Made by a program: the position numbers and the translations under genes | Assembly: GCF_030762805.1 (NCBI RefSeq) | Contig: NZ_CP129113.1 | Location: 1,874,001-1,938,000, forward strand | DNA: 64,000 bases | DNA from: Aciduricibacillus chroicocephali | GTDB taxonomy: Bacteria; Bacillota; Bacilli; Bacillales; Amphibacillaceae | Direction of reading: 5' to 3' | Notes under the pieces: generated by a model | Database searches by the model: none | Told to the model about the DNA's origin: nothing | Seen by the model: the letters and a program-made list of their open reading frames with translations, nothing else | In this document: in pieces, positions 10,547 through 49,317 of the stretch | Layout: every line of letters starts with the position of its first letter | Position numbering within the stretch: the stretch's first letter is position 1

Positions 10547-10574
10547 TTGCAGATAATAGATGCTATAGTAAAAT
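10547..10574 (+). promoter_or_regulatory. SigA-type promoter of the SCO/YtkA operon
   Basis: TTGCAG (10547-10552), a 16-base spacer and TAAAAT (10569-10574) lie about 40 bp upstream of the SCO start codon. This is a plausible vegetative promoter for the two-gene unit. Confidence 0.5.
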
Positions 10575-10615
10575 TTGTAGAAGATTTTAATAAGTGGGTG
10601 AGAGGAGTTATTTAT

Positions 10616-11194
10616 TTGAAAATATATAAAATCATTCCGCTCCTTGCCATTCTGTTACTTGCTGCTTGTGGCCAGTCCAAAATTGAGACGAATATGTCTG
10701 TGGACGTTAAAAGCTTCGAATATAGGAATCAGGATGGTAATAAATTCGGACTTAAAGATTTAAAAGGTAACTGGTGGGTTGCCGATTTCATCTTTACAAA
10801 CTGTACTACCGTTTGCCTGCCAATGACTTCAAATATGAAACAGCTTCAGAACAGAGCAGCAAAAGAAAATGTCGATGTCCAACTTGTATCTTTCAGTATT
10901 GATCCGGATCGCGACAAACCAGATGTGCTGAAGAAATATGCAAAAAGCTATAATGCTGATACGAAGAACTGGAATTTCCTAACAGGTTATGATTTCAATA
11001 CAATTAAAGAGCTTTCCGTACTCTCTTTCAAAAGTCTAGCCGAGAAACCACCGGAGGGAACCGATACAGACCAGTTCACACACGGGACGAGCTTCTTCCT
11101 CGTTAATCCTGACGGCAAAGTAATTAAGAGATACGACGGAAGTGACAATAAATCAATTGATGCCATCGTGGATGACTTAAAGAAAGTTCAATAA
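10616..11194 (+). CDS. SCO1/SenC family lipoprotein (copper chaperone for cytochrome oxidase)
   Basis: A 192-residue protein with a lipoprotein signal (LLAILLLAACGQ, lipobox Cys about residue 18) and a thioredoxin-like SCO domain. The copper motif is complete: CTTVC (CxxxC) after DFIFTN, and the distal His in FTHGTSFFLV. SCO proteins deliver copper to the CuA site of cytochrome oxidase outside the membrane. I used a TTG start at 10616, eight bases after GAGAGGAG; the frame is open to 10547, but the upstream residues are not signal-like. It is followed 15 bp later by a YtkA-like lipoprotein, which suggests a shared role in copper or oxidase assembly. Confidence 0.9.
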   Translation: MKIYKIIPLLAILLLAACGQSKIETNMSVDVKSFEYRNQDGNKFGLKDLKGNWWVADFIFTNCTTVCLPMTSNMKQLQNRAAKENVDVQLVSFSIDPDRDKPDVLKKYAKSYNADTKNWNFLTGYDFNTIKELSVLSFKSLAEKPPEGTDTDQFTHGTSFFLVNPDGKVIKRYDGSDNKSIDAIVDDLKKVQ

Positions 11195-11209: not shown

Positions 11210-11968
11210 TTGAAAAAAAGTCTATTTATTATTGGAACAGTGATCCTTGTACTCTTCCTTTCAGCATGTGGGGAAAAGGACAAAGCGAAGGACACTTCAT
11301 CAAAAGAGCCGAACACGCTCGATCCGCTAGAAGTTGCTCTGAATGTGCCCGAAACTGGCGAAAAGAACAAGCCCATTGAACTAAAAGCAACAGTTAAACA
11401 AAAGAAAGAGCTAGTAGACGATGCTTCTGAGGTTCAATTCGAAATATGGAAAGACGGCGCCAAAGAAGACTCCGAAATAATTGATGCTGCAAATAAAAAA
11501 GACGGTAAATATACTGCTAATTACACTTTCAAAGAAGATGCCGTCTATACTGTCCAGGTACATGTAACGGCACGTCAGCAACACCAGATGCCAACAAAGA
11601 AAATTGCGATCGACAGTTCTGAAACTACGAGGAATGAGCATGAGGGACACAGCCACGGCGATGAGCACCATGCCTCTGATCTCAGTTTTCATTTTATAAA
11701 GCCGGAAAAAATCAGCAAAAATACAGATACTGAATTGGCCGTTCATTTGGAGAAGGACGGAAAACCACTTACAGAAGCAAATGTCCGTTATGAAATTTCC
11801 AAAGATGATGTTAAAAAACATGCATGGGTAGCTACGCAGGAAATTAAGACCGGTCAATATAAAGCTACATATGCTTTTAAAAATGCCGGCAAGTATACAG
11901 TACAAATTCACGTTGAAAATGATAAAGGTTTGCATGAACATGAGCACTATACTTTGACAGTTGAATAA
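11210..11968 (+). CDS. Tandem YtkA/FixH-like lipoprotein with His-rich linker
   Basis: A 252-residue lipoprotein: signal peptide with lipobox LSACGEK, then two similar immunoglobulin-like YtkA domains (about 45-140 and 157-252), each ending in a YTVQ(V/I)HV strand. The domains are joined by a His-rich linker (HEGHSHGDEHH, about 143-153), and the C terminus has HEHEH. The start is TTG at 11210 after AAAGGAGG. YtkA-like domains are linked to copper handling; this is family knowledge, and the His-rich linker fits metal binding. It forms an operon with the SCO gene and ends at a strong terminator. Two domains in one chain is longer than the usual single-domain YtkA. Confidence 0.82.
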   Translation: MKKSLFIIGTVILVLFLSACGEKDKAKDTSSKEPNTLDPLEVALNVPETGEKNKPIELKATVKQKKELVDDASEVQFEIWKDGAKEDSEIIDAANKKDGKYTANYTFKEDAVYTVQVHVTARQQHQMPTKKIAIDSSETTRNEHEGHSHGDEHHASDLSFHFIKPEKISKNTDTELAVHLEKDGKPLTEANVRYEISKDDVKKHAWVATQEIKTGQYKATYAFKNAGKYTVQIHVENDKGLHEHEHYTLTVE

Positions 11969-11978
11969 CGCGAGAACC

Positions 11979-12013
11979 AAATCCCGGTTGCACTGTGCAA
12001 TCGGGATTTTTTA
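11979..12013 (+). terminator. Intrinsic terminator of the SCO/YtkA operon
   Basis: The stem AATCCCG(G)TTGCA pairs with TGCAATCGGGATT around a short loop, followed by TTTTTT. It ends one base before the first heptamer of the array described next. Confidence 0.9.
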
Positions 12014-12166
12014 TGTCGAAAATTATTAACTCGTTCGACATTCTATTAAGTTCGTGTCGAATATACTCGTTCATCTTTCGACATGTTCACTTGCTAGATT
12101 CGACAACTTCCATATGCTTATTCGACACATTCCTTTGTTTGTCGAAACCTAGAATAACAATCGACA
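12014..12166. repeat. Regularly spaced array of eight TTCGACA/TGTCGAA heptamers
   Basis: Between two convergent operons lie eight copies of one heptamer: TGTCGAA at 12014, 12055 and 12140; TTCGACA (its complement) at 12034, 12077, 12099 and 12121; and ATCGACA (one change) at 12160. The TCGA cores are 19, 22, 21, 22, 22, 20 and 19 bp apart, near two helical turns, so all sites face one side of the helix. The spacer sequences are A+T-rich and unrelated to each other. The heptamer equals the Spo0A box core (TGTCGAA). No promoter or gene is obvious in the array. The rest of the gap (12167-12228) holds a GGCGAATT/AATTCGCC dyad. Confidence 0.85.
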
Positions 12167-12228
12167 ACCCAAGATAACATTGGCGAATTATGAGCAAATT
12201 GATTTCTCCAAAATTCGCCGTATACGAC

Positions 12229-12262
12229 AAAAAATCAGACAACCAATATAAGTTGTCTGATT
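12229..12262 (-). terminator. Intrinsic terminator of the thiZXY operon
   Basis: A perfect 10-bp stem (ATCAGACAAC/GTTGTCTGAT) is followed by TTTTTT on the minus strand, just past the stop of the substrate-binding protein gene. Confidence 0.92.
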
Positions 12263-12270
12263 TCATATAT

Positions 12271-13290
12271 TTATTCTGCAATATTTACGTAAACGTCTGT
12301 AGCTTCAGGTTCTTTTTTGATTAGATCATAATCCTTAAGCCATTTTGCCGTCTCTTCCCAAGATGACTTTTCCTGACTGCCGAAACCTTTGTCAGATTTC
12401 ATCTTTGGCAGAAGGATTTCAAGACTCTTCTTCTCAATTGTCGCGTCAAGTGGGAAATTGGACTTGTCCTGATTGTCCAAGAGAATTTCCAATGACTGTT
12501 CTGGGTTCTCGACTGTAAAATTAAATCCTTTTTCTGCCGCACGCCAGAACGCTTCAATTTGCTTTTTCTCTTTCTTTAGGGTCGCATCACTTGTTACTGC
12601 AACAAGTTCATAATAGGATGGTACGCCGTAATCTTCTGGATTCAATACACCTACATCATGCTTTTCACTTTCGAGAATCGGTACCTCATGGTTCACATAC
12701 ATTCCTGTTACAGCATCTGTCTTTCCAGAAACAAGTGCCGGCATTAAATCAAAACCAACATCCGTCATTTTAACTTTAGCCGGATCCCCTCCGTCTTTTT
12801 TGACCATCGTTTCAATCATTTTTTCTGCTACAGGAATACCAGAATAGCCAACATTTTTTCCTTCCAGATCTTTTGGTGACTTGATTTTTGTTTTAGTCTC
12901 ATATACGAGGCGGTTAAGTGGTGAACGAACAACAGCTGCAACTGCTTTTACTGGAATGTCTTCATTGGCACGGGCCATGATGACATCCGGCTGATAATAC
13001 ATTCCCATCGTCACTTTCCCAGAAGCCGCGAGACTGAGCGGGTCTGTCGGATTCGCAGGAAATTCAAATTCTACATCAAGTCCTTCATCTTTGAAATAAC
13101 CTTTCTCTTTGGCTGCATACAAATAGCTATGTACAGCATTGGGATACCAATCCAGCATGACGGTAATCTTTTTCAAACGCTCATCTGATTTCCCTCTTGC
13201 ATGATCTTTTTCAGTTTCATCTTTCGCACCACATCCAGCAATCAATAATAATGTAAAAATAGCAATAAACGATATCAACAATTTTTTCAT
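12271..13290 (-). CDS. thiY: Thiamine-precursor ABC transporter substrate-binding lipoprotein (NMT1/THI5-like)
   Basis: A 339-residue lipoprotein with signal peptide and lipobox LLIAGCGAK, then an NMT1/THI5-like fold: VMLDWYPNAVHSYLYAAKEKGYF, SGKVTMGMYYQPDV and SPKDLEGKNVGYSG. These proteins bind pyrimidine precursors of thiamine, such as formylaminopyrimidine or HMP. The ATG at 13290 follows GGAGGAAATACGA; a start at 13305 is less likely. It overlaps the permease gene stop by 4 bp. The operon begins with a TPP riboswitch, which is the main reason for assigning a thiamine-precursor role rather than sulfonate or nitrate uptake, whose transporters look similar. Confidence 0.9.
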   Translation of the reverse strand: MKKLLISFIAIFTLLLIAGCGAKDETEKDHARGKSDERLKKITVMLDWYPNAVHSYLYAAKEKGYFKDEGLDVEFEFPANPTDPLSLAASGKVTMGMYYQPDVIMARANEDIPVKAVAAVVRSPLNRLVYETKTKIKSPKDLEGKNVGYSGIPVAEKMIETMVKKDGGDPAKVKMTDVGFDLMPALVSGKTDAVTGMYVNHEVPILESEKHDVGVLNPEDYGVPSYYELVAVTSDATLKKEKKQIEAFWRAAEKGFNFTVENPEQSLEILLDNQDKSNFPLDATIEKKSLEILLPKMKSDKGFGSQEKSSWEETAKWLKDYDLIKKEPEATDVYVNIAE

Positions 13291-14027
13291 TCGTATTTCC
13301 TCCATTTCAATATGTAACTTTCAAGTACCAAAACAATTGCAAATAGCAACAGGCCTGCGAGTGACAATACGATGATTGGTGCAAAGACCCCTGCTCCATC
13401 AAACTGTGTCATCATTCTTCTGCTGAAGTATCCGAGTCCTTCCTGTGCACCGAGCCATTCACCGATTGCCGCTCCGATAACTGCCATTGGAACAGCAACT
13501 TTTAATCCGGAAAAGAAGCTGGGCAGTGAGGCAGGAACTTGTAATTTGAAAAAGATGTCTCGCCGATTAGCTCCCATTGTATGCATCAGTTCTGTCAATT
13601 CTCTACTTGTTGCACGAATCCCATCAAATGAAGAAATGACAATTGGGAAAAAGGTGATCAGCACAGTCACAAGTACTCTGCTCCAGATTGTATAGCCGAA
13701 CCAAAGCACAAAGACTGGGGCAATGGCTATAATTGGTATCGTCTGGGTTGCGACCAAAACAGGATAAAGTGCCTGCTCTATCATTTGGCTTACTGTCATT
13801 AGAATCGCTAATAGAATACCAAGTACAATCGAAATCATAAGGCCGATGAAAACGACAAGCATTGTAGCCGGCAAATGTTCCAGGAGCAGCACATCTTTTA
13901 GCTCCCAAATCTTATTGACTATGCCTGTCGGTGTTGGCAAAATGAATTGCATGTCAATCGAACGGGCAACGATTTCCCAGATGATCAGGAGGATGATAAT
14001 AAATATTACCGGTGCAATCCGTCTCAT
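13287..14027 (-). CDS. thiX: Thiamine-precursor ABC transporter permease
   Basis: A 246-residue integral membrane protein with about six hydrophobic segments, beginning with PVIFIIILLIIWEIVA. The binding-protein-dependent permease (BPD_transp_1) region carries the coupling-loop motif in LMHTMGANRRDIFFKLQVPASLPSFFSGLKVAV, which contacts the ATPase. It overlaps the ATPase gene by 4 bp at its start and the binding-protein gene by 4 bp at its end. Sequence alone would also fit the taurine/nitrate permease family; the upstream TPP riboswitch supports thiamine-precursor import. Confidence 0.88.
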   Translation of the reverse strand: MRRIAPVIFIIILLIIWEIVARSIDMQFILPTPTGIVNKIWELKDVLLLEHLPATMLVVFIGLMISIVLGILLAILMTVSQMIEQALYPVLVATQTIPIIAIAPVFVLWFGYTIWSRVLVTVLITFFPIVISSFDGIRATSRELTELMHTMGANRRDIFFKLQVPASLPSFFSGLKVAVPMAVIGAAIGEWLGAQEGLGYFSRRMMTQFDGAGVFAPIIVLSLAGLLLFAIVLVLESYILKWRKYE

Positions 14028-14861: not shown

Positions 14862-14914
14862 AGACACACATACAGAATATACACTGCTGGTCATGACCAT
14901 GCAGAGATCTTCTT

Positions 14915-15004
14915 CACCGCTTCCTTACGCTAGTTCGAACTAGATCAAGTTCAAGGGTCAAGGCCACGCCTCTCTCAGCTCGCAATTGAGCACCCCTAGT
15001 GGTG
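14915..15004 (-). ncRNA. TPP riboswitch (thi box)
   Basis: Reading the minus strand, the conserved thi-box blocks appear in order: ACTAGGGGTGCT, GCTGAGAGAGG, ACCCTTGAACTTGATCTAG, and ACTAGCGTAAGGAAG. P1 can form between CACCACT at the 5' end and AGCGGTG at the 3' end. One departure from consensus is ACTTGATC in place of ACCTGATC. It is followed by an attenuator whose 5' arm can pair with the aptamer's 3' end, so TPP binding should stop transcription of the thiZXY operon. Confidence 0.95.
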
Positions 15005-15083
15005 ATAAAATTATTGAATTTTCAGCATACTTAATGACAGTATGTCATGATTTAAGAAATAAAGCAAGTCAACTTCAGCAAGT

Positions 15084-19308: not shown

Positions 19309-19835
19309 AGCCGCCGCTGCGAAAAGAATGCTCGCTTTCACCCAAGGGCATAAGTGCGACATCTGTTCAAGCTACCTTTTCAGTCGCTTTCTCAGTGTCT
19401 TTCTTTACCTGCGGGCAAGCACTGAGCCACTGTGGCGCAAGCGCCTCACTGTCTCAGTACGTTTGTTTCGACGGCAGGATGCCTAGTGATGGCGTTGGTC
19501 GCAGGACGCGACCGATTTTAGCTATCTTCCCGCGGGATTCTCGCATCTTTTCTCCGCTATGTCCGGTGTTCTATCAAGGATTGCAGTGGAAGGCGATGAC
19601 TTCAAGCCGACATAACGCCACGTCCTGTGGCATTGTCGGCACTAGGACGTCGTGTCCTTCGTGGGAATAGCATGAGCAGAAGATAATATTCCAGGCGTTC
19701 TTTGCCTGGAATTTAGCTAAAGCCATGCCCGTGGCAAAGTAGACACTGTGAAAGAAACTTGAACAGATGTCGCCCTTGAGCCCTTGGTTTAAAGCGTTCG
19801 CCTGTAGCGCAAATCCGGCGGGGCGCAATCGTTGT
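19309..19835. repeat. Non-coding element with long inverted ends and nested hairpins
   Basis: The two ends of this stretch are imperfect inverted repeats of about 100 bp. The best match is GCGACATCTGTTCAAG at 19356-19371 and, inverted, at 19757-19772; AAGGGC and CAGTGTCT blocks on either side also align. Between the arms are several local hairpins: GGCGC/GCGCC near 19434, GGTCGC/GCGACC (19497-19513), GCCGACA..GCCAC/GTGGC..TGTCGGC (19606-19640), AGGAC/GTCCT (19644-19658) and CCAGGC/GCCTGG (19691-19709). It is more GC-rich than other intergenic DNA here. Open frames inside read through the hairpins, lack ribosome sites and look like no protein. No transposase is seen. A mobile, MITE-like or structured-RNA element is possible. 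Confidence 0.7.
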
Positions 19836-49161: not shown

Positions 49162-49317
49162 GGTCGAATAGCCAAATATTGCATTCGTCACTTTTTCGAC
49201 ATTATACTATCTTTTTCTTATGCGAATTCGACATAAATACAGTCGTAACATGTCGAATTAGCGTCGAATCTATTTTCCAAATTTAATATTCAGAATAGCG
49301 TTCACTTCTTTTCGACA
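49162..49317. repeat. Second cluster of TTCGACA/TGTCGAA heptamers
   Basis: Between hpf and the small gene lie GGTCGAA (49162), TTCGTCA (49184), TTCGACA (49195), TTCGACA (49227), TGTCGAA (49251), CGTCGAA (49262) and TTCGACA (49311). Four are exact and three have one change. Core distances (21, 11, 32, 25, 11 and 48 bp) are looser than in the 12-kb array but several approach helical multiples. The cluster lies upstream of the small minus-strand gene. The rest of the gap holds only the hpf terminator. Confidence 0.75.

Follow-up and report, generated by a model that had tools for sequence, protein, structure and literature searches.

What does a row of Spo0A-box-like heptamers do in a place that offers it no promoter to control? 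The question is raised by a 153-bp array in the chromosome of Aciduricibacillus chroicocephali, found at positions 12014-12166 of the 64,000-nucleotide stretch of DNA that was analysed (the window, to which positions refer unless another sequence is named). Pattern search and direct reading of the window give seven exact copies of TTCGACA/TGTCGAA and one near-exact copy, ATCGACA:

12014..12020, - strand: box 1, TTCGACA, exact
12034..12040, + strand: box 2, TTCGACA, exact
12055..12061, - strand: box 3, TTCGACA, exact
12077..12083, + strand: box 4, TTCGACA, exact
12099..12105, + strand: box 5, TTCGACA, exact
12121..12127, + strand: box 6, TTCGACA, exact
12140..12146, - strand: box 7, TTCGACA, exact
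12160..12166, + strand: box 8, ATCGACA, near-exact

This is the count given in a preliminary description of the locus, which had also placed the TCGA cores 19-22 bp apart and reported a mixed orientation pattern (+,-,+,-,-,-,+,-); both statements hold, the latter with the strand convention swapped. The cores start at 12016, 12035, 12057, 12078, 12100, 12122, 12142, and 12161, giving successive gaps of 19, 22, 21, 22, 22, 20, and 19 bp, that is, two helix turns, with all boxes on one face of the helix. When eight sites were placed at random within the span of the array, none of 400,000 placements had all gaps between 19 and 22 bp, and the phase coherence of the observed sites is 0.83 at 10.5 bp. 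At the heptamer density measured in 400 kb sampled from this genome, chance would give about 2e-11 clusters of this kind genome-wide, and no other 7-mer forms a comparable cluster in 464 kb of the genome (words of one or two letters excluded). The array is real and lies far beyond chance. A comparison of its spacers found them dissimilar to one another, and Tandem Repeats Finder called no repeat in it, which rules out tandem duplication as its origin, in keeping with the earlier claim.

The boxes lie in a 302-bp intergenic gap, with the genes on both sides pointing toward it:

10547..11194, + strand: SCO1/SenC-like gene, left convergent unit
11210..11968, + strand: YtkA-like lipoprotein gene, left convergent unit
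11979..12009, + strand: terminator-like hairpin of the sco1-ytkA unit, strong, its T run stopping just 5' of box 1
12182..12219, no strand assigned: inverted repeat GGCGAATT...AATTCGCC, from direct reading, between the array and the second terminator
12232..12263, - strand: terminator-like hairpin of the thi transporter operon, with its T run on the - strand (the scan had listed +)
12271..13305, - strand: NMT1/THI5-like substrate-binding protein gene, right convergent unit
14905-15007: TPP riboswitch upstream of the NMT1/THI5-like gene

The right-hand unit is a thiamine-precursor-type transporter operon on the - strand. Two terminator-like hairpins flank the array, as first described, and the absence of a promoter to control was borne out, promoter-like sites in the gap being at background level only. 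The gap also has no match to an Rfam family, and no conserved plausible ORF was seen in it. The neighbours are sco1, ytkA, and the thi transporter genes, with no Rep, Par, or other partition gene near the array.

The protein most readily connected with the heptamer is Spo0A. The gene abrB is a textbook Spo0A target, and in B. subtilis Spo0A acts upstream of it. In relatives of the same family TTCGACA occurs upstream of abrB at 49 sites against 1.1 expected, which supports the initial identification of the heptamer as the Spo0A core, and in Anoxybacillus a dense TTCGACA cluster lies between abrB and metG. Across 159 family genomes, same-strand TTCGACA pairs show one peak at 10 bp (31 of 101 pairs in the 8-17 bp class) and another at 20-21 bp, which takes in 48 of the 91 pairs of the 18-24 class. 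Such peaks mark a site that is read from a single helix face, and helical spacing of TTCGACA is therefore a habit of the family. As the 20-21 bp spacing recurs in relatives, the suggestion that selection acts on the heptamer and its phase is plausible. AT-rich non-coding DNA elsewhere in the family also has single boxes paired at two turns, and the array may be an extreme case of this arrangement. Judged by these sequence comparisons, TTCGACA behaves as the Spo0A box in this family, and its family-wide spacing of 10 and 20-21 bp amounts to a simple sequence rule for Spo0A-type sites there.

The genome under study has an intact spo0A of its own, so that the Spo0A attribution stands as far as the presence of the gene is concerned; the C-terminal DNA-binding domain of the encoded protein aligns end to end, almost unchanged, with that of solved Spo0A. 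SpoIIGA is present as well. A single TTCGACA-type site precedes the spo0A ORF by about 30 bp, in the spo0A promoter. The genome's own abrB promoter contains no exact 0A box, while nearly all examined relatives have one, and the binding preference of Spo0A is therefore read from the relatives and not directly from this genome. Another single site lies in the oriC region, among the DnaA boxes upstream of dnaA, and matches the Spo0A boxes reported for B. subtilis oriC, which have the consensus TGTCGAA and partly overlap DnaA boxes (PMC5295017).

The genome consists of one contig of 2.73 Mb that starts inside dnaA and continues with dnaN, recF, gyrB, and gyrA, as recognised by eye from the reading frames. 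Since the contig starts in dnaA, the array, at about position 1,886,090 of the contig, is 844 kb from oriC. Whole-genome pattern searches, with three TCGA cores at array spacing or two copies of the full heptamer as the pattern, returned the array, one looser cluster, and otherwise isolated pairs only. The genome-wide scan and the mapping against oriC that had been proposed in the preliminary description thus yield a sole array of this kind in 2.73 Mb, at that one distance. A GTCGAAGT-rich imperfect tandem repeat occupies G000:C1:706957-707446 (L001-L005) and is probably a coding repeat.

The looser cluster also falls within the window:

49164..49317, no strand assigned: second TTCGACA cluster, looser than the array, with hpf on one side and, on the other, a small ORF upstream of secA

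It has four exact sites between 49195 and 49317 (49195+, 49227+, 49251-, and 49311+) and further TCGA cores at 49164 and 49264. Together with 18 boxes in 28 corresponding loci of relatives, the four in the window make 22 in 29 loci versus 1.1 expected; outside this count, the corresponding locus (L246) of G024, the relative closest in hpf identity, has five boxes. The small ORF has no Pfam match. This second cluster looks like an ordinary conserved regulatory region, and its conservation supports the heptamer as the site of a regulator. In 464 kb of the genome, 18 intergenic heptamer sites were counted versus 5.6 expected, and the two clusters supply most of the excess; outside them the heptamer is not enriched in intergenic DNA, so a genome-wide excess is not found. 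A general intergenic enrichment, as for an uptake signal, is ruled out on the same grounds.

Of the genomes sampled, G024 has the highest hpf identity and is taken as the nearest relative. It retains ytkA and thiY in convergent order, with a gap of 57 bp that holds one terminator-like hairpin and no box; its contig stops inside ytkA, of which the C-terminal end only is visible. Other relatives with a close thiY, among those examined, have no heptamer beside it, and no DNA-level relative of the array was found in 40 relatives. On this comparison the array is lineage-specific, and the gap lengths, 302 bp in the window against 57 bp in G024, mean that it was either gained here or lost there. The preliminary description had proposed a protein-coated landmark serving sporulation or replication, and had itself named loss of the array in a close relative with conserved synteny as evidence against it; G024 is such a relative. 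With a single copy in the genome, far from oriC, and a syntenic nearest relative that lacks it, the reading of the array as a conserved chromosome landmark fails.

Nor is the array an ordinary Spo0A operator. The usual form of such an operator is a set of boxes in tandem, spaced by 10 bp, next to a promoter. At 9-11 bp from the array boxes, half-sites match no better than in shuffled spacers (P=0.68), which rules out canonical tandem Spo0A dimers concealed in the spacers, and it is these chance-level partners, the mixed orientations, and the absence of a promoter that set the array apart from a standard operator. With the Spo0A boxes at the abrB and spo0A promoters it shares the TTCGACA/TGTCGAA heptamer, helical spacing, and the presence of Spo0A; it differs from them in having eight boxes, two turns apart, in mixed orientation.

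We suggest, giving the proposal an even chance of being right, that the array is a lineage-specific platform of eight single 0A boxes between convergent terminators, which binds Spo0A~P and works as a sink or a roadblock. Boxes two helix turns apart would bring all bound molecules to the same side of the DNA. Late in growth Spo0A~P would fill the boxes, and the filled boxes would form a one-sided nucleoprotein patch. Such a patch could hold Spo0A~P away from its other targets, a sink with a logic comparable to that of DnaA-box clusters, and/or it could stand as a roadblock in the path of read-through transcription coming from either operon. As there is no promoter for the array to act on, these would be its most likely effects, and on either of them the array presumably matters to the cell.

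Known systems offer partial parallels to such a platform. The Spo0A boxes in B. subtilis oriC likewise lie outside a simple promoter and have a possible non-transcriptional role (PMC5295017), but they are at oriC and the array is not. DnaA-box clusters (the DBCs of B. subtilis and datA of E. coli) act through the amount of free regulator (PMC5295017). The array resembles them in that the boxes of a regulator are clustered away from its main site; it differs in the protein concerned and in its strict two-turn phase, and its role as a sink is putative. A narrower version, in which a promoter-less two-turn array is a chromosomal Spo0A sink or one-sided assembly site that fixes, within one lineage, the free Spo0A~P threshold, is unlikely. 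If Spo0A does fill the array, the chromosome would have, away from any promoter, a cluster of Spo0A sites unusually rich in boxes, which would permit a direct test of decoy-site tuning of a developmental regulator in bacteria; if the sink reading is true, the array would be to a developmental response regulator what DnaA-box clusters are to DnaA.

Similar arrays exist elsewhere. A pattern scan of all species gave more than 100 stretches among the matches listed, mostly coding repeats or a different, GC-rich repeat (TTCGACAAGCTCAG), and few AT-rich intergenic cases among the matches listed. Three family members (G075, G087, and G088; L229-L234) have intergenic arrays with a 21-bp period at several loci per genome, in which TTCGACA stands inside a longer conserved unit resembling TTGTGAACTTCGACAtttttcc or TGTCGAACTCCGGCGATTTTT. 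Arrays of TTCGACA spaced by 21 bp also lie between genes in Sporolactobacillus shoreae (L160:5528-5576), a Clostridia MAG (L173:3050-3121), and Bacillus fonticola (L120:748-817). In a viral collection, where the hits examined were mostly coding or tandem repeats, a 128-kb contig (L334:901-1223) has 14 copies of TGTCGAA, most at intervals of 20-22 bp and with spacers that differ from one another, and the 3.9-kb stretch that holds them also encodes a ParA-like ATPase; this array is possibly an iteron or partition site. No papers on such arrays were found in the open-access literature.

The strongest rival to a Spo0A platform is that a different DNA-binding protein, for example of the nucleoid or partition type, recognises the same or an overlapping word and coats the array, Spo0A being incidental. 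Single boxes two turns apart without 10-bp partners are unlike Spo0A operators, and the viral array near a ParA-like gene, together with the 21-bp-period intergenic arrays of family members and Sporolactobacillus, in which TTCGACA is part of a longer unit, would suit such a protein. The heptamer, however, is already in use at abrB across the family, in a role consistent with Spo0A, and none of the genes near the array is a partition gene. We regard this rival as doubtful.

It is improbable that the array is a relic of a mobile element or plasmid, with iterons or a partition-site array that stayed behind in the chromosome and no longer function. Plasmid iterons and partition-site arrays do consist of short boxes at intervals of about two turns, with spacers that vary, the spacing resembles that in the viral contig, and the difference in gap length from G024 shows that an array was gained or lost. 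Yet iterons are direct repeats beside a rep gene, whereas the boxes here are in mixed orientation with no Rep or Par gene nearby, and a functionless remnant accords poorly with flawless heptamers beside fully diverged spacers.

That the gap contains an unannotated small RNA or small ORF, with the boxes as its Spo0A-controlled regulatory region, is quite improbable: the comparable second cluster, upstream of a small ORF and conserved in relatives, gives the idea a precedent, but the gap itself has no promoter over background, no Rfam match, and no plausible conserved ORF. Least credible of all is an element acting in RNA, with inverted heptamers making hairpins in read-through transcripts, for although the array's + strand has a stronger fold than its shuffled versions (z -4.0), such a signal is built into inverted heptamers, it is weak on the opposite strand (z -1.8), there is no Rfam family, a strong terminator lies 5' of the array, and hairpins need neither 20-22 bp spacing nor mixed orientation.

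In two relatives (L031 and L032), a gene is preceded by two TTCGACA copies 20 bp apart and by a further box at its start codon; in L031 it encodes an AimR-like protein. Elsewhere in the window, positions 19471-19537 of the - strand match the Bacillaceae-1 small RNA (Rfam RF01690), barely over the gathering score.
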